Assembly (NCBI GenBank): GCA_007692665.1
Contig: REBP01000067.1
Span: forward strand, 1-59,546
Direction of reading: 5' to 3'
DNA from: Gemmatimonadales bacterium
GTDB taxonomy: Bacteria; Gemmatimonadota; Gemmatimonadetes; Longimicrobiales; Gaopeijiaceae
Length of the DNA stretch: 59,546 nucleotides
In this document: positions 2,027-14,064 of the stretch, in pieces
Layout of the letters: the number at the start of each line of letters is the position of its first letter
Numbering within the stretch: position 1 is the stretch's first letter
The notes under the pieces: generated by a model
The model's database searches: none
Told to the model about the DNA's origin: nothing
What the model saw: only the letters and a program-made list of their open reading frames with translations
Program-made: the position numbers and the translations under genes

Positions 2027-2056
2027 TTGACATCCCGTGTGCGAGGGGGCCACTTT
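2027..2056 (+). promoter_or_regulatory. Sigma70-type promoter for the GH2-like/GH3 operon
   Basis: A perfect TTGACA lies at 2027-2032, followed after 18 bp by CACTTT at 2051-2056, which is the left edge of the palindrome at 2051-2077. The promoter at 11881-11910 on the other strand has the same TTGACA-18 bp-CACTTT layout, which supports both. The -10 hexamer is weak against consensus, but its overlap with the operator is what a repressible promoter would show. Confidence 0.6.
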
Positions 2057-2077
2057 GTTCGACAGCCGAACAAAGTG
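2051..2077. promoter_or_regulatory. Operator A: perfect 11-bp inverted repeat (putative ROK repressor site)
   Basis: CACTTTGTTCG, 5-bp spacer ACAGC, then CGAACAAAGTG: 11 of 11 bases pair. Related sites are at 11861-11885 and 12935-12961, each upstream of a gene of the glucan locus. It covers the predicted -10 and start region of the promoter at 2027, about 70 bp before the GH2-like start. The only DNA-binding regulator encoded in the locus is the ROK protein at 9167-10402, so it is the likely partner; binding itself is inferred. Confidence 0.75.
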
Positions 2078-2144
2078 TGCCGTGGCCCTCCCCGTCAACC
2101 GTCCGGCAGGGGGCCGGCCGCCGCCGACCCGAGGGAGCATGCCC

Positions 2145-5100
2145 ATGTCCTGCCCCGTCCCACTCCGCCGCCCCGGTCTTCTCCTGCTCCTCCCCGGCCT
2201 GCTGCTGGCGTCCGCCCTCGGGTTTCCCGAGGGGGCGAAGGCCCAGGCGCAGGCCGGCGCCCAGGCCGGACCCGAGGCCTCCCCCCCGGCTGCCAACGAC
2301 ATCCGCATCCTCCAGGACGAAAGCGGCATCCGCCTGGTGGTGGACGGCGACCCGTTCATGGTGAAGGGGGTGAACTGGGACTACTTCCCCATCGGCACCA
2401 CCGTGACCTACAACTTCTGGGGCGAGCCCGACGCCTTCATCCGGGAGGCGCTGGACCGGGAGATGGGGCTCCTCGAGGCCATGGGGGGGAACACGATCCG
2501 GGCCTACGAGGGCATCCCCCCCCGCTGGATCGAGTACATCCATGACACGTACGGGATCTGGACCATCGTGAACCACCCCGTGGGGCGTTACGGGGTGACG
2601 CTGGGGGGGCGCTACTTCCCCGCCACCGACTACTCCGACCCCCGGGTGCGGGACCTCCTTCGCACCGAGGTGGAGGAACTGGTCCGGGAACTCGCCGGAA
2701 CCCGGGGGCTCCTCATGTGGCTCCTGGGGAACGAGAACAACTACGGGCTCGAGTGGCGCTCGGCCGAGACCGAGAACCTCCCCGAGGGGGAGCGCTTCCA
2801 GGTCATGGCGCGCTACCTCTATTCCCTGATGGGCGAGGTGGTGGATGCGGTGAAGGCCATCGACCCCCACACGCCGGTGGCCATGGCCAACGGGGACCTC
2901 CAGTACCTGGACATCATTGCCGAGGAGGTGGCGAACCTGGACGTGTTCGGCTCCAACGTCTACCGGGGCATCACCTTCACCGACCTCTTCGAGCGGGTGG
3001 ATGCGGCCATGGGGATCCCCGTCCTCTTCACCGAGTTCGGGGCCGACGCCTTCCATGCGGTGAACTTCCGCGAGGACCAGGTGATGCAGGCCCGGTACCT
3101 GATCGGGCAGTGGGACCACATCTACCGGGAGGCCGCCGGGAACGGGGGGTTCGGCAACGCCATCGGCGGCGCCGTCTTCCAGTGGAGCGACGGGTGGTGG
3201 AAGCACGGGCAGACCGAGCGCCTCGACATCCACGACACCCATGCCTCCTGGGCCAACGACGCCTACGCCGAGGACTATGTTCCCGGCGAGAACAACATGA
3301 ACGAGGAGTGGTGGGGGATCATGGCCAAGGGGCCCACCGATGCCCGGGGCCACTTCGAGCTCTTCCCGCGGGCCGCGTACTACGCGCTGAAGCGCATCTT
3401 CGAGCTGGACCCCTACGCGCCCACCACCGACCGGGGCGTCATTGCGGCCCACTTCGCCGGGATCACCCCCCTCGAGGCCGAGCTCCAGGCCCGGGGTGAC
3501 CGGGCGAGCCTGCTGGGGACGCGGGCCAGCGTGGCGCGCCTGAGCGGGATCCGGATGGATCTCGAGACCTACTCCACCGGGGGCACCCGCATCAGCACCC
3601 CCGAGGACCGGGCGCCCGGGAGTACGGCCCGTCCCGCCTTCCAGGGGTTCGACACCAAGCAGTCCTTCTTTGTCGAGGCCCAGGTCACGCCGGCCCCGAA
3701 CCTGGTGGCCGACCTGTCGGTGAACATCCTGGGGGCGGTCCCGGACAACCCCATCGACGAGATCTTCTACGAGAACGTGGGGCGCCAGCGGCGCGTCCCC
3801 GCCGACGGCGGCACCCTCACCGTCTCCGACTTCGAGCGGGTGCGCATCTACCAGGCCGGAGTGGCGTGGGACGACCGGAACTTCCGGCTGGACGGCTTCT
3901 ACCGCACCGGGCACTACCACTGGGCGTACGAGGGCGACTTCTTCAACATCTACCGCGAGGCCAACTACGGACCGAACATCGATCTCTACAACGGCATCGC
4001 CCCGGTGGGCTTCGAGTGGGCGGGCAAGCGGCACCTGGAGGGGCTCAAGGTGGCCTTCGGCCCCGAACTCTGGTGGGGGGCGAACCCGGCGGTCCTGACC
4101 AAGTACACCCGGAACGTGGGGCGCTACCAGCTCACCGGGCTCTTCCACGAGGACCTTGCCCGGCAGGGCGAGGTCACGAGCTCGTTCGCCATCCCCACCC
4201 CCCCTACCCGCCGCACCACCCTCCACATGGGCACGAACTGGCGGGGGATCGAGGTGGATGTGGGCGGGATCTGGGGAGGCTCGACCCGGGTGGGCGAGAC
4301 CTTCCAGCTCGTGCGCGGGGAACCGGGAAACCAGGAGGTGCTGCTGGACGAGATCCGCACCGGCGACACCTTCGGCGGCAAGGCGAAGGTGGCCTTCCAG
4401 CTGGGCCCGGTGAACGGGTACATGCTCGGATCCTCCACCGGGCTCGTGGCCGAGGGAGGGTACGACCAGACCCAGACCTTTACCGGGTGGCGGCTCAAGG
4501 ACAACGGGAGCGGGAACCAGCGGCAGCTCCTGGGCGGCTTCACCTATGCGGTGGGGAACCTCCAGATCGCGCCCAACGTCATGTGGCAGCGGCCCATCGA
4601 GGGTCCGGTTCCCGTGGATGCGCCGGCCCCGGCCCGCCCCCGGAACATCCTGGACGATCCGTTCGCCGTGCGGGTGAACCGCGAGACCACGGCCGCCGAA
4701 CTCCTGTTCACCTGGGATCCCACCCCGGCCACCTGGATGTACGCCTGGGACTCCGACCGCCAGGAGGACGCCCCCTTCGCCATGAGCGCCGGCGTGGTGT
4801 TCCGGCGGCATCATACCACCGCTGACGCCGCCATCGGGATCCTGGCCGACGGCCGCACCACCTTCGCCTTCCCCGGGGGAACGCCGGCCCGGGACCTGTG
4901 GGAGGTCCATGCCCGGATCGTGTCGAAGCAGGGTGGGGGGGCCGGCATCATCCTGAACCCCTACGTGGGCACCGGCGAGGCCCGGGGCTCGGACCCCCGG
5001 AAGATCACCCGCTACGGGACCGACCTGCGGGTGATCCGGGGGCCGGCCCGGTTCTCGGGGTTCGTCAGGGTCGACGACTGGGGCCCCTTCGACTACCATC

Positions 5101-5354
5101 GGGACTTCAACCTCACCTTCCCCCTGCAGCTCATGGGCGACATGTCCTGGAGCCTGGGGCGGCCCGACTGGTTCGACATTCCCATGACCCGACTGGGGCT
5201 CCGGGGCACCTGGCGGAGCCTGGACCGGTTTTCGCCCCGCTACTGCCCCGAAGTCCGGACCGGGACCGGGGGCTCCCGGGCCTGCGACCCGCTGGCCGAC
5301 GGCCCCCGGGGGCAGGAATGGGAGATCCGGACGTACCTTCAGATCGCCATGTGA
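2145..5354 (+). CDS. GH2-like (clan GH-A) glycosidase fused to a probable outer-membrane beta-barrel
   Basis: About 1069 residues. Residues 1-30 are a signal peptide ([11 protein letters not shown], cleavage near AKA). Residues about 45-440 form a TIM-barrel glycosidase of the GH2 C-terminal type: WLLGNEN carries the acid/base (N196-E197) and LFTEFGAD the nucleophile (E297). After about residue 480 there is no recognisable enzyme; the sequence alternates polar and aromatic residues in short strands with turns and ends in an amphipathic strand ([12 protein letters not shown]), as in outer-membrane barrels. ATG 2145 has GAGGGA 8 nt upstream; ATG 2139 is also possible. The stop overlaps a possible GTG start of the GH3 gene. 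Substrate is inferred from the neighbours (beta-glucan); the family number and the barrel assignment need a structure-based check. Confidence 0.75.
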
Positions 5355-5365
5355 GCCGGCTTTCC

Positions 5366-7648
5366 ATGCATCCATCTGCCGCTGCGGCCCCCGGCCCCGG
5401 CCCCGGCCCCGACCGCGACCACGACCACGACCAGGACCCGGGCGTGGATCGGGACGTGGAGGCCCGCATCCGGGCCCTGCTGGACCGCATGACGCCGGCC
5501 GAGAAGGTGGGGCAGCTGAACCAGCTCTCCGGGGCGGACGGCATGATCCCCGATGCGCTGGCACGGCAGGTCCGGGAGGGGCGGGTGGGGTCCATCCTGA
5601 ACGAGGTGGACCCGCGGACCCTGAACGAACTCCAGCGCCTCGCCGTGGACGAGAGCCGCCTCGGGATCCCCCTCCTGGCGGGGCGCGACGTGATCCACGG
5701 TTTCCGGACCATCCTCCCCATCCCCCTGGGGCTCGCGGCCACCTGGGACCCGGAGCTGGTCCGGGCCGGGGCCCGCATGGCGGCGGTGGAGGCGGCGGCC
5801 TGCGGCATCCGGTGGACCTTCGCCCCCATGGTGGACATCGGCCGAGACCCCCGGTGGGGCCGGGTGGCCGAGTGCCTGGGCGAGGACCCCTTCCTCTCGG
5901 GGGTGCTGGCTGCCGCCATGGTCCGGGGTTTCCAGGGCGACGACCTCGCCGATCCCACGAGCCTGGCGGCCTGCGTCAAGCACTTTGCCGGGTACGGGGC
6001 CAGCGAGGCGGGGCGGGACTACAACACCACGAACATTCCCGAGGGTGAACTCCGGAGCGTGCACCTCCCTCCCTTCCGGGCGGCGCTCGAGGCCGGGGCG
6101 GCCACCGTCATGACCTCGTTCAGCGACCTCAACGGGATCCCGGCCACGGCCAACCGTTTCCTCCTCACCCAGGTGCTCCGCGAGGAATGGGGGTTCGACG
6201 GCTTCGTGGTGAGCGACTGGGACTCGATCCCCCAGCTCACCGTGCACGGGCTCACCGAGGATGCCCGGGCGGCGGCGCTGGCCGCGGCGGAGGCCGGGGT
6301 GGACATGGACATGGTCGGCCACGCCTACGCCGGTCACCTGGAGGCCCTCGTGGCCTCAGGTGCCTTCCCGGAGGCCCGGCTGGACGCCATGGTGGCCAAC
6401 GTGCTCCGGGTGAAGCTCCGGCTGGGGCTCTTCGAGGCGCCCTGCACCGCGACCGCGACCGCGCCCGAACCCGCCGCTCCACCCGCCGCCCACCTGGCGC
6501 TGGCCCGGGAGTCGGCCCTCCGGAGCGTGGTGCTCCTCCGGAACGAGGGCGGGCTCCTCCCCCTGGAGGCGGCGGCGCTGGGGCGGGTGGCCGTCATCGG
6601 ACCCCTGGCCGACGAGCCCCGGGAGCAGCTCGGCACCTGGGTCTTCGACGGCGACCCGTCGCTCAGCGTGACCCCCCTGGCGGCCCTCCGGGAGGCGCTC
6701 CCCGGGGCACGGGTACGCCACGTTCGGGCCCTGGATACCTCCCGGAGCGAGGACCGGTCGGGCTTCGCCGAGGCGGTGGAGGCCGCCGCCGACGCCGACG
6801 TGGTCCTTGTCTTCCTGGGGGAGGAGGCGGTGCTCTCGGGCGAGGCCCACTGCCGGGCCGACATCACCCTCCCCGGCGCGCAGGAGGCGCTGGTGGATGC
6901 GGTGCGGGCCACCGGGACCCCGGTGGTGCTTGTGATCCTTGCGGGGCGTCCCCTCGCTCTCGCCTCCGTGGTCGACAAGGTGGACGCCCTCCTCTACGCG
7001 TGGCATCCCGGAACCATGGCGGGTCCGGCGCTGGCGGATCTCCTCCTGGGGAAGGCGGCGCCGTCGGGGCGCCTCCCGGTGACCTTCCCCCGGGTCACGG
7101 GGCAGATCCCCATCTACCACGCCCATCGGAACACCGGTCGTCCGCCCACCCCCGAGACCTTCGTGCACCTCCGGGACCTCCCGCGGGGGGCGTCGCAGCT
7201 CTCCACCGGGGCCACCTCGTACCACCTGGACACCCACTACACGCCGCTTTTTCCCTTCGGCTTCGGCCTGGGCTACACCACCTTCGCATACGACGCACTG
7301 CGCGTGGAGCCTGTTACCATGCCGCCGGACGGGGTCGTGCAGGTGGCGGTGGAGGTGGAGAACACGGGATCCCGGCGGGGCACCGAGCTGGTGCAGCTCT
7401 ACGTCCGCGACCCGGTGGCCAGCGTGACCCGCCCGGTGCGGGAGCTCAAGTCGTTCCGGCACGTGGAGCTGGCGCCGGGGGAGCGGCGCACCGTGACCTT
7501 CGAGCTCCGGGGCGCCGACCTGGCCTTCCCGGGGCGGGACATGACTTGGGTCACCGAACCGGGACGGATGCAGGTGTGGGTGGGAGGCGACGCCCATGCC
7601 ACCCTCGGGGCCGAGTTCCGAATCATGGAGCCGCAGCCGGATTCCTGA
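5366..7648 (+). CDS. GH3 beta-glucosidase, probably cytoplasmic
   Basis: 760 residues. Residues about 30-380 are the GH3 N-terminal barrel: GRDVIHG, KHFAGYG, and FVVSDWDS with the nucleophile Asp (D284 from this start). Then comes the GH3 C-terminal sandwich (LLRNEGGLLPL) and a fibronectin-III-like domain (TGSRRGTELVQLYV). There is no signal peptide; the first 25 residues are a low-complexity Pro/Gly then Asp/His run encoded by short DNA repeats. GTG 5351, overlapping the upstream stop, is an alternative start. Such enzymes remove glucose from the non-reducing end of beta-glucan oligosaccharides. It is co-transcribed with the GH2-like/barrel gene and would finish the degradation after uptake. 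Confidence 0.93.
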   Translation: MHPSAAAAPGPGPGPDRDHDHDQDPGVDRDVEARIRALLDRMTPAEKVGQLNQLSGADGMIPDALARQVREGRVGSILNEVDPRTLNELQRLAVDESRLGIPLLAGRDVIHGFRTILPIPLGLAATWDPELVRAGARMAAVEAAACGIRWTFAPMVDIGRDPRWGRVAECLGEDPFLSGVLAAAMVRGFQGDDLADPTSLAACVKHFAGYGASEAGRDYNTTNIPEGELRSVHLPPFRAALEAGAATVMTSFSDLNGIPATANRFLLTQVLREEWGFDGFVVSDWDSIPQLTVHGLTEDARAAALAAAEAGVDMDMVGHAYAGHLEALVASGAFPEARLDAMVANVLRVKLRLGLFEAPCTATATAPEPAAPPAAHLALARESALRSVVLLRNEGGLLPLEAAALGRVAVIGPLADEPREQLGTWVFDGDPSLSVTPLAALREALPGARVRHVRALDTSRSEDRSGFAEAVEAAADADVVLVFLGEEAVLSGEAHCRADITLPGAQEALVDAVRATGTPVVLVILAGRPLALASVVDKVDALLYAWHPGTMAGPALADLLLGKAAPSGRLPVTFPRVTGQIPIYHAHRNTGRPPTPETFVHLRDLPRGASQLSTGATSYHLDTHYTPLFPFGFGLGYTTFAYDALRVEPVTMPPDGVVQVAVEVENTGSRRGTELVQLYVRDPVASVTRPVRELKSFRHVELAPGERRTVTFELRGADLAFPGRDMTWVTEPGRMQVWVGGDAHATLGAEFRIMEPQPDS

Positions 7649-7673
7649 CCTCGTGCAGGGTTGGCCTCTCCCT

Positions 7674-9149
7674 TCACACCCCCGCCGGCTCCGGCGCCCC
7701 CCGCCGCGCTTCGAGCTCCGCCCGCACCTCGCCCGCCACCGCCTCGGTGATGGGGTAGCTGACCACCACCCAGATGGCCACCAGCGAGCTGGCCGCCGGG
7801 ATCAGCACGTCGAAGAGGCGCAGGGCCAGGAGCGTTCCCTCGGTCTGGGCGCTTCCCAGGGCCACGTCGAACCCCGTGGCGTTCAGGAGGAACCCGCCCC
7901 CCAGGAGGGCCGCTGCCATCCCCAGCTTCACGACCCACCAGAAGATGGACCCGAACATCCCCTCCCGCCGCGCGTGGGAGGTGAGCTCGTCCACGTCCAC
8001 CACGTCGGCCATCATGGCGGGAACCAGGGTGAAGAGGCCCCCGAGCCCGAAGGCCATGAGGGGGGCCGGGACCACCACCAGCCAGGGGTAGTCCGGGTTG
8101 TAGCAGAACCACTTGAGGAGGTAGCCCACCACCGAGATCCCGGTGGTGATGAAGAAGGCCTTCCGCTTGCCGAACTTCGTCCCCATCCAGGTGGCCAGGA
8201 TGATCACCCCGAAGGTGGACACGGCGCCCACGGACCCGGCGTAGCCCGCGTACTGGGCCCCCAGGGCCTGGTCGCCGCCCAGCACGTAGTAGATGATGAC
8301 GTAGACCGAAAAGGCCGAGATCAGGATGAAGCCGTTGAAGACCAGGAAGGTGGCGGCGCACAGCTTGAGGAAGGGGCGCGACTGCACCGTGAGCTTCATG
8401 CCCGCCAGGAACCCGGCAATCCCCCGCTTCAGCCGGGAGGTGGCCGAGGCCATCCACGACAGGGTTCCCCTCGGCACGCTTCCGGGCGCCTCCCGGAACC
8501 GTTCCCGGAGGAAGATGGCGGGGAGGATGCCGAGTCCGATGGCCACGGCCGCCACCGCCAGCGAGAGTCCCCGGGCCCCCTCCAGCTGGGTGTCGAACCA
8601 GTTCTGGTTCGTCATGATCCAGAGGAACCAGGGCGACACCACGTAGGCCAGCTGGCCGATGAAGTTCTGCACCCCCATGAGGCGGGTGCGCTCGTGGTAA
8701 TCCGGGGTCAGCTCGTAGCCCAGTGCCACCCACGGGGTGGCGAACATGGTGTAGGCCAGGTAGAAGAGGATGGAGCCGCCCAGGAAGTACCAGAAGTAGA
8801 AGGCTTCCGAGCGTCCCCCCGGGAGCTGCCAGAGGAGGACGAAGAGGAGCCCCGCCAGGATCGCACCGCAGAAGATGTAGGGTCGCCGCCGTCCCCAGCG
8901 CGAGTGCGTGTTGTCGGAGACGTAGCCCATGATGGGGTCGGTCAGGGCATCGGTGAGGCGGGGCAGGGCGCCCAGCGCCCCCACCAGGGCCGGGTTCATC
9001 CCCAGCCCGAGGTTCAGGATGATCGCCATGCCGCCGATGGCAGCGGCCAGTAGGTTGTTGACGAAGGCACCCGCGCCGTAGAGAAGCTTCTGGCGAAAGG
9101 GGATGCGGTCCTCTTCCGGTGTATCGCGCCCCCGCAGGCCGGGTGTCAT
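7674..9149 (-). CDS. GPH-family (MelB-like) sugar:cation symporter
   Basis: 491 residues with about 12 hydrophobic segments. The glycoside-pentoside-hexuronide signature is clear between TM2 and TM3: LTDPIMGYVSDNTHSRWGRR, where the Asp residues of this loop bind the coupling cation and sugar in MelB. FATPWVALGYEL and YVVSPWFLW are further family-typical segments. It would carry oligosaccharides or glucosides across the inner membrane. It is the last gene of a leftward run: lipoprotein, ROK regulator, transporter; 17 bp separate it from the ROK gene, so co-transcription from the promoter at 11881-11910 is likely. Confidence 0.9.
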   Translation of the reverse strand: MTPGLRGRDTPEEDRIPFRQKLLYGAGAFVNNLLAAAIGGMAIILNLGLGMNPALVGALGALPRLTDALTDPIMGYVSDNTHSRWGRRRPYIFCGAILAGLLFVLLWQLPGGRSEAFYFWYFLGGSILFYLAYTMFATPWVALGYELTPDYHERTRLMGVQNFIGQLAYVVSPWFLWIMTNQNWFDTQLEGARGLSLAVAAVAIGLGILPAIFLRERFREAPGSVPRGTLSWMASATSRLKRGIAGFLAGMKLTVQSRPFLKLCAATFLVFNGFILISAFSVYVIIYYVLGGDQALGAQYAGYAGSVGAVSTFGVIILATWMGTKFGKRKAFFITTGISVVGYLLKWFCYNPDYPWLVVVPAPLMAFGLGGLFTLVPAMMADVVDVDELTSHARREGMFGSIFWWVVKLGMAAALLGGGFLLNATGFDVALGSAQTEGTLLALRLFDVLIPAASSLVAIWVVVSYPITEAVAGEVRAELEARRGAPEPAGV

Positions 9150-9166
9150 CGGCTGGCGTCCACGGG

Positions 9167-10402
9167 TCAGTCTCGCATGGTCGGAAAGAGGGAGGGACGC
9201 TCCAGCGCGGAGGCCAGCACCAGGGTGGACGCCCCGATGGCGATTCCCCGGGGCCCGAGTTCGCTGACCCGGATCTCCGAAGCCGCCACCGAGCTCACCA
9301 GTGTGCGCCGGAGCACGGTTTCCCGGAGGGGGAGGAGGAGGTCGTCGCCCAGGCGGGCAAGGCTCCCCCCGAGGATCACGGCGCCCGGGTTCAGGAGGTT
9401 CAGGAGCCCGGCAATGGCCACCCCCAGGTGGTGGGCCGCCTCCCGCACCACCTGCATGGCCAGGGGGTCACGGGCCAACGCCGCCCGCTCGATGATGCCC
9501 GTGGTGATCTCGCACCCCGACAGCATGCTCCCCGGGGCACCGGCGAGCCCCTCCCGGGCCCGTCGGACAAGGGCCTCGCCCCCCACGAAGGTGACCAGGC
9601 ACCCCCGGTTGCCGCAGACGCAGGGGAGGCCCTTCGGATCGATGGAAACGTGACCGATCTCTCCGGCGGCGTTCGTCGCCCCCCGGTAGACCTCGCCCCC
9701 CACCATGAGGCCCGCCCCGATTCCGGTGGCCAGCTTGATGTAGGTGAAGTCCTCGATTCCCCGGCCCGCGCCCCACCAGCGTTCGGCCACGGCCCCCAGG
9801 TTGGCATCGTTGTCCATGAAGACGGGCACCCCGAAGTGCGTCTCCAGCGACTCGAAGCCGCTCCTCCCCTCCCAGGCGGGGAGGACGGTGGGGGAGAGCC
9901 GCTTCGGGTCGCGGTGGTCCACCGGGGCGGGCACGGCCACGCCCAGTCCCAGCAGCGCCTCCGAAGCCCCCGGCACATCGGCCAGGCATGCCTCGCACAG
10001 CCGGACGATGAGCTCCCGGGTCCCGTCGGGGTCGGACCGCACCGGGTGCGCCTCCTCCCTCCAGGCCAGCACCCGTCCCCGAAGGTTCGTGAGCGCCACG
10101 GCCACGTGGGTGGCCCCCATGTCCACCCCGAGGATCAGGTGGGCCTCGTCCTGGAACTCGAGAAGGATGGGTCGCCGCCCCCCCCGGCTGGGGCCGTCTC
10201 CGACCTCGGCCACGAGCTTCGTGGCCAGCAGGTCGCTCACGAGCTCGGAGGCGGTGGAGCGGGAGACTTCGAGAAGCCGGGAGAGATCGGCGCGGGAAAT
10301 GCGCCGGCGGTACCAGATCGTCTCGAGAGCCAGCTCGGGCAGCGGCCGGCCCCGGGCCTCGTGGGCCGGGGCCGGCGGATGTGGCGGGGACGTGAGTTCC
10401 AT
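9167..10402 (-). CDS. ROK-family transcriptional regulator (NagC/XylR/Mlc type)
   Basis: 411 residues. A winged helix occupies residues about 30-85 (ISRADLSRLLEVSRSTASELV, split as ISRADLSRLLEVSR and STASELV). Then follows the ROK sugar-kinase-like fold: DMGATHVAVAL phosphate-type loop, NDANLGAVAE, GEIGH and the zinc motif CVCGNRGCL. The last glutamate of the usual ROK zinc motif is Val here. ROK repressors leave DNA when they bind a sugar or glucosyl derivative. The gene sits inside the glucan locus, and three palindromes at the locus promoters (2051, 11861, 12935) are the natural targets, including the promoter of its own operon, so autoregulation is expected. Start: ATG shortly after the lipoprotein stop. 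Confidence 0.92.
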   Translation of the reverse strand: MELTSPPHPPAPAHEARGRPLPELALETIWYRRRISRADLSRLLEVSRSTASELVSDLLATKLVAEVGDGPSRGGRRPILLEFQDEAHLILGVDMGATHVAVALTNLRGRVLAWREEAHPVRSDPDGTRELIVRLCEACLADVPGASEALLGLGVAVPAPVDHRDPKRLSPTVLPAWEGRSGFESLETHFGVPVFMDNDANLGAVAERWWGAGRGIEDFTYIKLATGIGAGLMVGGEVYRGATNAAGEIGHVSIDPKGLPCVCGNRGCLVTFVGGEALVRRAREGLAGAPGSMLSGCEITTGIIERAALARDPLAMQVVREAAHHLGVAIAGLLNLLNPGAVILGGSLARLGDDLLLPLRETVLRRTLVSSVAASEIRVSELGPRGIAIGASTLVLASALERPSLFPTMRD

Positions 10403-10433
10403 GGCGTTCCCGGAAAGGTGCGGCGGGCCGCCG

Positions 10434-11825
10434 TCAGCGGCGGAAATAGACGTTGTCGACGTAGACAGTGTTCGGATCGCCCGAGATGATCAACTGCGCC
10501 ACGTGCCCGCGGGTGGTGAGTCCGGTGAAGGCGCTGATCGGGATGTCGAGGCTCGACCACTGGCCCGAAACCAGCGCCGGTGTGGTGGTCGCGTCGAGGG
10601 TGATCTCGTGCTCCACGTCGTCCCCGCCGCCGAAGACGCCATTGGGGCCGAAGTCCACGAGCTTGATGCGGAACGCGGCCGGCGGGTCGGTGGCGTCCGG
10701 CGTCCACACGTGCATGTGGAAGTGGGTCATCTCGGAGGCGTTGATGGTCTGCGAGGTGAACTCGATGCCGGCAAAGACCAGGTTCGAGTACCGTTTTACG
10801 TCACTGCCGCCGATCTGGACGTCCTCCACGTCGGCGCTGTCCCATTCGGCGGACCAGGTGTCCACCGTCACGTCGTTGTAGGCGTTGCTGAACAGCGAGA
10901 TGACGTCGGCCTGGGCGTGGGTGGGAGTGGGCGCGGCCTCCTGTGGCCCCGACACCGTGGTCACCGTGATGGCGCCCGCGGCCTCCACCGTTCCCAGCGC
11001 GGCCGTGATGGTGGCCGAGCCCTCGCCCACCACCTCGATCTCTCCCGTGTCCGACACGGTGGCCACGGCGGGATCGGACGAGGTGAAGGTGAAGTAGGAG
11101 GGGGCCGAAAGCACGGTGATCTGCTGCCCGGACAGGGTCCACGTCACCACGGTCCCTGCCACGGGGGCTTTCGCCCCCACCGCGAGGGCGAGGGACTGGG
11201 TGGCGATGGCGGGCTGGGGCGCGCTGAGCCCGGCGACGGTCTCGAACCGGATTTCATCCAGCCAGATCGTGTAGCCCTGGCCCTCCTCCGCCCCCTCGGC
11301 GAAGTAGAAGAGCCCCCGCTCCTGGTCCAGGGCCGAGGCGCGGGGGAAGGGGATCACGTGACGCTGCCAGGTGGTGGTCAGCGGAAGTCCCCGCACGTCG
11401 GCGATGTAGAGGGAGTTCCCGGTGTTGTCGTTGCCGATCCCGGCCACGTCCAGATTCGCCGTCCGACTCGCCTTGGCCCAGAAGGTGATGGCGTTGTATT
11501 CGCTCAGGTTCCGGGGGATGGCCGCCACGAAGGCCCCGCCGGCATAGCTGCCCGTGGGATCGTCCGGCGCCGGAACCGTGATGCGGAGCGATGCCGAGCC
11601 CTCTCGTGCCTCGGACTCGTCCCGCTGCACGGCATCCACCTTGGAACCGCCGAAAGCCTGGAAGTCGATGCCGTCGCCCAGGTTGTCGTCGAAGACAACC
11701 GCGTCGTCAGGGAGGGGAGCCGGGCCTGCGGGGTCGCTGTCCCGGTCGCATCCCGCGGCCAGGACCAGAACGAGACCGGCCGCCAGGGCCGGGAGAAGAG
11801 AGCGGCTGAATCGAGTCAGAGGCAT
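10434..11825 (-). CDS. Secreted lipoprotein with carbohydrate-binding-type beta domains
   Basis: 463 residues. The N-terminus MPLTRFSRSLLPALAAGL ends in a lipobox (VLAAGCD), so it is a lipoprotein. Residues about 35-185 resemble a jelly-roll CBM (YNAITFWAKAS, LDEIRFETV); about 200-280 an Ig-like Big_2 domain (SSDPAVATVSDTGEIEVVGEG); the C-terminal 160 residues form a second jelly-roll ending in TVYVDNVYFRR, a segment common in proteins linked to GH16 enzymes. No catalytic motif is seen. First gene of the leftward lipoprotein-ROK-transporter run, behind operator B. By position and make-up it would hold glucan on the cell surface, like SusE/F-type binding proteins, but the assignment rests on fold patterns. 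Confidence 0.8.
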   Translation of the reverse strand: MPLTRFSRSLLPALAAGLVLVLAAGCDRDSDPAGPAPLPDDAVVFDDNLGDGIDFQAFGGSKVDAVQRDESEAREGSASLRITVPAPDDPTGSYAGGAFVAAIPRNLSEYNAITFWAKASRTANLDVAGIGNDNTGNSLYIADVRGLPLTTTWQRHVIPFPRASALDQERGLFYFAEGAEEGQGYTIWLDEIRFETVAGLSAPQPAIATQSLALAVGAKAPVAGTVVTWTLSGQQITVLSAPSYFTFTSSDPAVATVSDTGEIEVVGEGSATITAALGTVEAAGAITVTTVSGPQEAAPTPTHAQADVISLFSNAYNDVTVDTWSAEWDSADVEDVQIGGSDVKRYSNLVFAGIEFTSQTINASEMTHFHMHVWTPDATDPPAAFRIKLVDFGPNGVFGGGDDVEHEITLDATTTPALVSGQWSSLDIPISAFTGLTTRGHVAQLIISGDPNTVYVDNVYFRR

Positions 11826-11860
11826 GACGGCGCTCCTCGGAAACCGGGGGGAAGAGACAA

Positions 11861-11885
11861 ACTTTGTTCGACTACCGAACAAAGT
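11861..11885. promoter_or_regulatory. Operator B: 10-bp inverted repeat (putative ROK repressor site)
   Basis: ACTTTGTTCG, spacer ACTAC, CGAACAAAGT: a perfect 10-bp inverted repeat with the same 5-bp spacing as operator A. It is 36 bp upstream of the lipoprotein start and overlaps the predicted -10 of that leftward operon. Confidence 0.75.
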
Positions 11886-11910
11886 GCGCCGGAAGGCGCC
11901 CCCCTGTCAA
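11881..11910 (-). promoter_or_regulatory. Promoter for the lipoprotein-ROK-transporter operon
   Basis: On the minus strand a perfect TTGACA (11905-11910) is followed by 18 bp and CACTTT (11881-11886) at the edge of operator B. This is the same arrangement as at 2027-2056. Confidence 0.6.
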
Positions 11911-11930
11911 GCGCGACGTTTCGCACCCGG

Positions 11931-11990
11931 CCCGCGCCAGCCCGTACCCGCCCGTACCCGCCCGCGCCAGCCCGTACCAGCCCGCAACCC
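11931..11990. repeat. 10-bp tandem repeat, about six units
   Basis: Units of CCCGTACCCG, CCCGCGCCAG and CCCGTACCAG follow each other in the gap between operator B and the stop of the GH16 gene. The repeat is non-coding. Confidence 0.75.
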
Positions 11991-12016
11991 GCCCGTTCAT
12001 GTCTGACCCGGCGAGG

Positions 12017-12886
12017 CTATTCGTCCCGGGTGTAGACCCGCACGTAGTCCACCACCATGGACTGGGGGAAGACCGTCCGGGCGTCGGGGTGCCCCGGCCA
12101 GTCGCCCCCGACGGCCACGTTCAGCACCAGGTGAAAGGGCTGGTCGAAGGGAGCGGGGTAGGGGCCCCCCGCGGAGCGCCATTCGGTCTGGGTCTGGTAG
12201 TGCTCCCCGTCCACGTACCACCGCATCTCCCCCTCCTCCCACTCCAGCGTGAAGGTGTGGAAACGGTCGGCGAAGGTCCCCGAGGGGAGGACGAAGGGCG
12301 CGCCGGAGTAGACGTTGTCGGGCCACTCCCCACCGTAGTGCAGTGTCCCGTGCACCCGATCGGGTTCGTGCCCCACGAGCTCCACGATGTCGATTTCCCC
12401 GCTGGCCGCCCAGGTCCCGTAGCGGTTCTCGGAAGGAAGCATCCAGATGGCCGGCCAGAGACCGCGCCCCAGGGGAAGGCGGGCGCGCACGTCGATCCGC
12501 CCGTACGTCCAGTCGCCCTTGCCGAGGGTGCGGATCCGGGCCGAGGTGTAGGCCCTCCCCCCCGCCGGCTCCGCCCGGGCGGTGATGGTGAGGACCCCGC
12601 CCGATACCTGGACGTTCTCCTCGCGGTACCACTGGAGTTCGTTGTTGCCCCATCCGCACAGCCCGATGTCGCATCCGTCCCCTACCTGGAAGGACCACCT
12701 GTCCGGGTCGAGGTCCGAGCCCTCGAACTCGTCGGACCAGACCAGCACCCAGCCGGAATCCGGGACGATGTCCCGCTCCGACGTCGTGATCCCCCCGTCG
12801 GGGCGACAGCCCGGCGCGGCCGCGGCAGCCAGCGCGGTGGTGAGGAGAAGAACCGCCAGGGAGGCGGCCGGGCAGGCGGTTTTCAT
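12017..12886 (-). CDS. GH16 endo-beta-glucanase (laminarinase-like), probable lipoprotein
   Basis: 289 residues. Signal sequence with a weak lipobox (AAPGC, Cys27), so secretion and probably lipid anchoring. A single GH16 sandwich follows: WSDEFEG at the start, WGNNELQWY, then the catalytic motif EIDIVE with E164 as nucleophile, D166, and E169 as acid/base, and VVDYVRVY at the end. The EIDIVE form without an inserted residue and the WPAIWMLP segment are typical of bacterial beta-1,3(-1,4)-glucanases. ATG 12886 has GAAGGAG 5 nt upstream. It is divergent from the glucokinase and shares operator C. It would make the first cuts in the glucan outside the cytoplasm. Confidence 0.93.
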   Translation of the reverse strand: MKTACPAASLAVLLLTTALAAAAAPGCRPDGGITTSERDIVPDSGWVLVWSDEFEGSDLDPDRWSFQVGDGCDIGLCGWGNNELQWYREENVQVSGGVLTITARAEPAGGRAYTSARIRTLGKGDWTYGRIDVRARLPLGRGLWPAIWMLPSENRYGTWAASGEIDIVELVGHEPDRVHGTLHYGGEWPDNVYSGAPFVLPSGTFADRFHTFTLEWEEGEMRWYVDGEHYQTQTEWRSAGGPYPAPFDQPFHLVLNVAVGGDWPGHPDARTVFPQSMVVDYVRVYTRDE

Positions 12887-12934
12887 GGGGGCTCCTTCGT
12901 GCCGGGGGTTGGGTGGTCCGGGCCACCCGACCCT

Positions 12935-12961
12935 GCTATTGTACGGAAGCCGAACAAAGCG
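12935..12961. promoter_or_regulatory. Operator C: half-conserved inverted repeat between GH16 and glucokinase
   Basis: The right half, CGAACAAAG at 12951-12959, matches operators A and B exactly; the left half is degenerate (GCTATTGTACG), with the same 5-bp spacing. It lies between two divergent genes of the locus and overlaps the spacer and -10 of the GH16 promoter, so it could act on both. Confidence 0.6.
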
Positions 12962-12967
12962 TGCCAC
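12938..12967 (-). promoter_or_regulatory. Candidate promoter of the GH16 gene
   Basis: On the minus strand GTGGCA (12962-12967), 18 bp, then TACAAT (12938-12943), a good -10 in a GC-rich region, about 50 bp before the GH16 start. Operator C covers the spacer. Confidence 0.45.
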
Positions 12968-13002: not shown

Positions 13003-14064
13003 GTGCCCGGTTCCCACCCCTCCTCCGTGTCCCCGACGCCCCCACCACGGCCCGTCCTCCTGGCCGACATCGGCGGCACCTGGGCCCGCTTCGCCCTGCT
13101 GGGAGACCATCCCCGGGATCTCCGGAACTTCCGGAGGTTCCGGTGCAGCGACTTCCCCTCCCTCGAGGCCGCCATTGACGCCTACCTGGCGCCCGGATCC
13201 CCGGAGGATTCCGGGGACGGGGTCCCGACGCCGGTCGCGGAGGTCTGCCTGGCCCTCCCGGGGCCGGTGGACCGGGACGAGATTTCCCTCGCCAACAACC
13301 CGTGGAGCTTTTCGCGGTCGGCGCTCGAGAGCTTCCTCGGCGTTCCCATCACGCTGGTCAACGACTTCGAGGCCCAGGCCTGGGCATCGGACCTCCTGAC
13401 CCCCGAAGAGCTTCACTTTGCCGGCGCCCCGCGCCCCGATCCCCGGGGGGCCCGCGTGGTGCTGGGTCCCGGCACGGGGCTCGGCGTGGCCCTCCGCCTC
13501 CCCGGGGGGAGCATTCTTCCCTCGGAGGCCGGACACACGGGGTTCAGCCCCGCCACCGAGCACGAACTCGACCTGATGCGCGTCCTGATGGGCAGGTATC
13601 CCCGGGTCTCGGTGGAGCGCGTGGTCTCGGGCCCGGGGCTCGCGAACCTCTTCGAGGCGAACCTGGTCCTGGCGGGCGGGGGCGCCGTGCCCGCCCACGG
13701 GATCGAGACCGGCTCCGACGACCCGTCCACGCCCGCTCGCATTGCAGAACTGGCGGCCGAAGGGCACCCGGTGGCCCGCCGGGCCGTGGACGATTTCTTC
13801 AACATGCTTGCCGCCTTCGCCGGCGACATGGCCCTGGCCGTCTGGGCCACGGGAGGCGTGTACGTGTCCGGGGCCGTGGTCCGGAAGCTCGCGGCCTTCC
13901 TGGACGAGGACCGCTTCCGAGCCCGGTTCGAGAACAAGGGCCGCTTCCAGGGGTTCTGCGCCGAGGTGGCCATCGGATGGATGCAGGTGGAGGAGCCCGG
14001 GCTCCTGGGGTGCGCTGCCCGGATGACCGGAGGTCCCCCCACCGCCGGGGTTCCCCCGCGCTGA
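13003..14064 (+). CDS. glk: Glucokinase
   Basis: About 353 residues from this start. It has the hexokinase-fold motifs of the bacterial Glk family: LLADIGGTWARFAL phosphate-1 loop, LALPGPVD, LVNDFEAQAW with the catalytic-base Asp, LGPGTGLGVAL and EAGHTGF. It turns glucose into glucose 6-phosphate with ATP, the last step for glucose released by the GH3 enzyme. No ATG is available near the fold; GTG 13003 has GAGG 6 nt upstream, GTG 13027 is the alternative (345 residues) and GTG 12961 would put operator C right at the start. E. coli Glk is 321 residues, so either of the first two fits. Divergent from GH16. Confidence 0.9.
   Translation: MPGSHPSSVSPTPPPRPVLLADIGGTWARFALLGDHPRDLRNFRRFRCSDFPSLEAAIDAYLAPGSPEDSGDGVPTPVAEVCLALPGPVDRDEISLANNPWSFSRSALESFLGVPITLVNDFEAQAWASDLLTPEELHFAGAPRPDPRGARVVLGPGTGLGVALRLPGGSILPSEAGHTGFSPATEHELDLMRVLMGRYPRVSVERVVSGPGLANLFEANLVLAGGGAVPAHGIETGSDDPSTPARIAELAAEGHPVARRAVDDFFNMLAAFAGDMALAVWATGGVYVSGAVVRKLAAFLDEDRFRARFENKGRFQGFCAEVAIGWMQVEEPGLLGCAARMTGGPPTAGVPPR

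Follow-up and report, generated by a model that had tools for sequence, protein, structure and literature searches.

Among the described ROK proteins, BglR of Thermotoga maritima controls a laminarinase/β-glucosidase operon and has cellobiose and glucose as effectors (PMC3750489). The site of Paenibacillus polymyxa XylR, another ROK protein, was mapped by EMSA to ACTTAGTTT-AAGCAAT-AGACAAAGT, a 9-7-9 layout (PMC9104551), that of Caldicellulosiruptor bescii XylR reads TAGTTTGTTTAATAAACAAACTA (PMC12285236), and the SPR-mapped site of Streptomyces coelicolor RokB is TTTGTTC-N11-GAACAAA (PMC4856308). In C. bescii, the predicted sites of XylR and of other repressors overlap promoter elements or sit in 5′ UTRs (PMC8579813). 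The locus described here lies in a window of 59,546 nucleotides (the whole stretch of DNA that was analyzed, contig REBP01000067.1) from an uncultured member of the Gemmatimonadota. It carries a palindrome of the XylR type, with a 9-N7-9 layout and the outer bases ACTTTGTT / AACAAAGT, reading ACTTTGTTC-N7-GAACAAAGT here compared to ACTTAGTTT-N7-AGACAAAGT in XylR. Its three sites, A, B, and C, are very probably the operators of a ROK regulator encoded in the same locus (9167–10402, minus strand), which, as judged from the sequence, would act as a local, sugar-released repressor of a regulon for laminarin/β-1,3-glucan utilization.

Operator A (2051–2077) reads directly as CACTTTGTTCG-ACAGC-CGAACAAAGTG, an inverted repeat of 11+11 bp without mismatch around a 5-bp spacer, and the next gene starts 65 bp downstream. 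Operator B (11860–11886) precedes the Big2 gene by 38 bp; it forms a perfect repeat of 10+10 bp (11861–11885) and shows a single mismatch to operator A outside the spacer. These perfect 11- and 10-bp repeats with their 5-bp spacer had been reported in the first-pass annotation, and both direct reading and the scan described below bear this out. Operator C (12937–12959), between the GH16 gene (minus strand) and the glucokinase gene (plus strand), has the form TATTGTACGG-N3-CCGAACAAAG and the sequence TATTGTACGGAAGCCGAACAAAG, with 3 mismatches in 18 specified bases, and is degenerate on one side. The "one exact half-site" formerly ascribed to it is slightly generous: nine bases of the better half (CGAACAAAG) are exact, and then CG is found where TG is expected. 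None of the three operators is assigned to a strand.

The sites are also positioned in a consistent manner relative to promoter elements. A perfect TTGACA, read from the sequence as the −35 box, is found at 2027–2032 on the plus strand for the GH158-like/GH3 operon and at 11905–11910 on the minus strand for the Big2-ROK-MFS operon, and direct reading confirms the earlier claim that both boxes end 18 bp before CACTTT and that A and B are thus equally placed. CACTTT, the presumed −10 at A and B, matches TATAAT poorly. At operator C, a promoter-like GTGGCA-18-TACAAT site for GH16 (12938–12967, minus strand) has its −10 inside one arm of the palindrome.

We searched the whole genome (4,234,508 bases in 258 contigs) for CTTTGTTCG-N5-CGAACAAAG, tolerating at most 3 mismatches. 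This is the kind of scan that the first-pass annotation had proposed, and it showed no random scatter, A, B, and C being the sole matches in the 4.23 Mb. The reversed control pattern gave zero matches across the same genome, and the full pattern was absent from dinucleotide shuffles of the window. From base composition, ~4e-6 exact matches and ~0.23 matches with exactly 3 mismatches are expected. A chance origin of the sites was ruled out by the shuffles and the whole-genome scan, A and B being beyond chance; operator C by itself could be chance, because ~0.23 three-mismatch matches are expected. Operator C is supported by its location at the divergent GH16/glk promoter and by its conservation there in the relatives G075 (L113:5097) and G083 (L115:14397).

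Operon A consists of the gene for a secreted/outer-membrane protein of 1071 aa (2139–5354, plus strand) followed by that for a BglX-like GH3 β-glucosidase (5366–7648, plus strand). Operon B, on the minus strand, starts with the gene for a Big2-domain lipoprotein-like protein (PF02368, 10434–11825), which is probably surface glycan-binding and whose gene is conserved in all the loci compared, continues with the ROK regulator, and ends with an MFS_2/GPH-type sugar transporter (7674–9149). On the two sides of operator C are a GH16 β-glucanase (12017–12886, minus strand) and a glucokinase (PF02685, 13003–14064, plus strand, with a possible alternative start codon at 13027). The 1071-aa protein has no Pfam/NCBIfam match and no PDB sequence match by phmmer at E ≤ 1. 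Its AlphaFold2 model, built from 25 orthologues and of moderate confidence (mean pLDDT 69), shows the GH158 catalytic fold according to Foldseek, with 9p26 (E 1.2e-14) and 6pal (E 1e-11) as best matches at a target TM of ~0.55, and the best matches of its second half are outer-membrane barrels. This unannotated target protein thus looks like a GH158-type laminarinase, an endo-β-1,3-glucanase domain fused to a C-terminal outer-membrane β-barrel. Since GH158 endo-laminarinases are the best matches of the model, the substrate may be a laminarin-type β-1,3-glucan.

The regulator itself contains a ROK kinase-like domain (PF00480, 4.7e-54), the Cys-rich zinc motif CxCGxxGC in the form CVCGNRGC, and an N-terminal HTH, a part that ROK sugar kinases are without. 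Mlc and Lmo0178 align to it only from about residue 28–34 onward. The SRSTxS recognition segment is conserved among the orthologues, and no further match to the regulator protein was found anywhere in the genome at E ≤ 0.001. In G045/G046, the HTH reads LARST and the operator TTGTACG, a co-variation of HTH and operator that is suggestive and concerns one clade only.

According to the mechanism we propose, a ROK dimer would bind ACTTTGTTCG-N5-CGAACAAAGT, starting 17–19 bp past the TTGACA −35, and would cover the −10 and start region or, at C, the TACAAT −10 of GH16. The bound protein would shut off GH158-like-GH3 at A, Big2-ROK-MFS at B, its own gene included, and GH16 together with the divergent glucokinase at C. 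Release would follow once a sugar derived from the degraded glucan, be it glucose, laminaribiose, or cellobiose, occupies the kinase-like domain. That ROK binds, that it represses instead of activating, and which sugar is the effector are what we infer here. Because the half-site is that of characterized ROK proteins, BglR offers a precedent, and the operators are placed like the predicted repressor sites of C. bescii, repression relieved by a glucan-derived sugar appears to be the most likely mechanism.

The palindrome is widely conserved with its genes. In ~20 additional genomes of the family, as well as in other families of the class, the same genes are immediately preceded by the form CACTTTGTTCGG-N3-CCGAACAAAGT, and at nearly every orthologous locus it lies directly 5′ of the Big2-ROK operon, of the GH158-like-GH3 operon, or of both. 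Of the 33 family sites, 27 have 18 bp and 3 have 17 bp between the end of TTGACA and the palindrome edge; the spacing is 17–19 bp in the other families, where all recovered sites with identifiable neighbors are at the same kind of locus. The expectation that the motif would be kept at orthologous loci retaining the ROK gene is therefore realized both within the family and beyond it, ROK being inside the operator-bearing operon in nearly every locus. G075 belongs to the same genus as the source genome.

Motif and regulator also co-occur. A ROK orthologue (>400 bits) is present in 26 of 121 family genomes, all 26 of which have the motif, and the GH158-like gene is found in 25 genomes, so that targets and ROK co-occur. 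When the 25-mer was searched at ≤2 mismatches in 94 family genomes, it was found in 23/23 ROK-positive and 2/71 ROK-negative genomes (Fisher p ~6e-20, a value that overstates independence, the genomes being related). In the two ROK-negative exceptions, G012 and G025, the 25-mer copies lie inside genes, and the palindromes of G025, which has no ROK orthologue, indicate that another process can yield the same sequence. In G044, operators at 0.47 and 3.35 Mb precede copies of the target genes, 3.2 and 0.3 Mb distant from the ROK gene, whose locus is at 3.66 Mb. G043, which is 78% complete, has operators and targets, and no ROK orthologue was found in it, probably due to an assembly gap. What was observed directly is where the sites lie, how widely they are conserved, and that they occur together with ROK, and all the computable tests that might have refuted an operator function (scatter, orthologous loci, ROK co-occurrence, agreement with published half-sites) came out favorably.

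The sister genus g3 shows a different situation. In one of its sub-clades (G016, G019, G021, G022, and G026), the palindrome occurs in 7–18 copies per genome, also off-locus and within genes, so that the motif, confined to the regulon in the source genome, is not so confined everywhere. The g3 regions analyzed contain 26 off-locus copies, 19 of them in genes, of which 15 are in the frame xFVRxxNKx; none of the 26 has the TTGACA box, compared to 3/3 on-locus copies in the same set. Alignments show an in-frame palindrome insert in purH, absent from G013, G015, G020, G034, and others, and another in kynU, absent from the close relative G026. A multicopy palindrome with in-frame insertions into genes has features of the gene-inserted palindromic repeats known as RPE/REP (PMC3733652). 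In sbcD, the palindrome arose by sequence change without insertion, so not every off-locus copy is an insert, and the peptides at the amidase copy (also in G012) and the GH3 copy may be natural; the sbcD, amidase, and GH3 cases indicate that the off-locus set is mixed. We rejected a genome-wide overrepresented half-site, such as an uptake sequence, as few half-sites lie outside palindromes in the regions of multi-copy genomes, and also a ROK paralogue reading the extra copies, as these genomes have one regulator-type ROK and their second match is ~36% identical and kinase-like. It is possible, as a tentative explanation, that in this sub-clade the operator palindrome, or else a repeat with the identical sequence, became a dispersed element devoid of a −35 box, with many copies intragenic and mostly in one frame and with two or more clean in-frame insertions (purH and kynU). 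If true, one and the same sequence would serve as a transcription factor operator and as an RPE-like palindrome that inserts into proteins, through recruitment of the repeat as an operator or through spread of the operator. Coincidence, recruitment, or spread may each account for the shared sequence, and these off-locus palindromes are a more novel lead than the operator-regulator system.

The same copies bear on other explanations of the sites. A mobile palindromic repeat of the REP/RPE kind that merely landed near genes would fit the multi-copy genomes and their purH and kynU inserts, but the source genome has no off-locus copies, and the TTGACA distance, fixed across genera and families on-locus, has no equivalent among the 26 off-locus copies, which makes this very unlikely. 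Off-locus copies likewise show that the sequence can occur without ROK and, together with the sites of G043, are what suggests that the palindromes could belong to some other regulator encoded elsewhere, the ROK protein sensing sugar or regulating other sites. We consider this unlikely, since the motif tracks the ROK orthologue across the family, ROK is within the regulated operon in nearly all loci, and the half-site agrees with published ROK sites.

Even if ROK binds these sites, it might activate, or do both, given that the poor −10 at A and B resembles that of activator-dependent promoters. The perfect TTGACA argues against such a role, as does the palindrome, which starts at the −10 and spans the start region, a repressor position similar to that predicted for XylR and further repressors of C. 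bescii (PMC8579813); activation is accordingly improbable in our opinion. This same position bears on a function in RNA, as a 5′-UTR hairpin, attenuator, or terminator, for which an 11-bp stem is possible and site B scores terminator-like. With the palindrome beginning at the −10, as deduced from the TTGACA spacing, transcription would start within it, so that the RNA would not contain the complete stem, and the sites serve either strand between divergent genes, as at C. We thus rejected an RNA hairpin, which is extremely unlikely from the palindrome position relative to TTGACA. Operators of a ROK repressor are the explanation that we retain.

The locus provides a concrete and testable operator-regulator pair for the use of β-glucan (laminarin) in Gemmatimonadota, a phylum for which few regulons have been described, and the simple DNA pattern allows the regulon to be followed across the class. 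The operator also exposed two leads, the fused GH158-like/barrel protein and the dispersed palindrome copies in the sister clade.

Compared to known systems, the locus resembles the BglR regulon of Thermotoga maritima, where a ROK repressor is located in, and acts on, an operon with laminarinase, β-glucosidase, and sugar transporter genes (PMC3750489), except that transport is by ABC systems in T. maritima and by an MFS/GPH symporter here. With XylR of Bacillus, Paenibacillus, and Caldicellulosiruptor, it shares the 9-7-9 palindrome with TTTGTT / AACAAA half-sites (PMC9104551, PMC12285236, PMC2873477) and the character of a local, autoregulated sugar repressor, autoregulation via operator B being a proposal here; the inner bases differ (GTTT/AAAC in XylR, GTTCG/CGAAC here), and XylR targets xylose and xylan genes. 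The half-sites TTTGTTC and GAACAAA are identical to those of Streptomyces coelicolor RokB (PMC4856308), whereas the half-site spacing is 11 in RokB and 7 here, and the RokB target is heterologous, with an amino-acid-linked regulon. The β-1,3-glucan locus of Bacteroides uniformis (BuGH158, PDB 6pal) has in common with this one a GH158-like enzyme, a surface glycan-binding protein (predicted here), and the substrate class. It differs in that no SusCD pair is seen here and that the GH158-like domain is fused here to an outer-membrane barrel. GH16 and GH3 enzymes are also present in the B. uniformis locus, which is under the control of a hybrid two-component system, in contrast to the ROK control proposed here. 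The arrangement described here adds another case to a well-known type of switch, the sugar-sensing ROK repressor.

The conserved, unannotated protein encoded by the first gene of operon A (2139-5354, + strand) has no match in Pfam, NCBIfam or PDB sequences, and its structure model suggests an endo-laminarinase domain resembling GH158, followed at the C-terminus by an outer-membrane beta-barrel. In some genomes of the sister genus g3, the GH158-like operator is adjoined by a DUF5916 plus CBM9-like gene (L119:15890-18169 in G022), which may be a regulon member. The g3 locus transporter reaches about 690-740 aa (L121:9268-11484, and likewise in other g3 loci), compared to 491 aa for the MFS transporter of the window (7674-9149, - strand); no additional Pfam domain was recognised in the extra ~200 aa.

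Two related genomes carry the operator variant TTTGTACG...CGTACAAA (L136:18037 in G045 and L137:6838 in G046), accompanied by a ROK protein whose HTH has LARST in place of SRST. A change of ROK specificity is possible.

A 25-bp palindrome identical to that of the operator is scattered through the genomes of a g3 sub-clade (G016, G019, G021, G022, and G026), at L155:5273, L158:4869, L169:4818, and L140:3465 among further loci, and often falls within genes. These dispersed copies lack the -35 box. Within this set, purH and kynU contain clean in-frame palindrome inserts, encoding DFVRxPNKV, which are RPE/REP-like.
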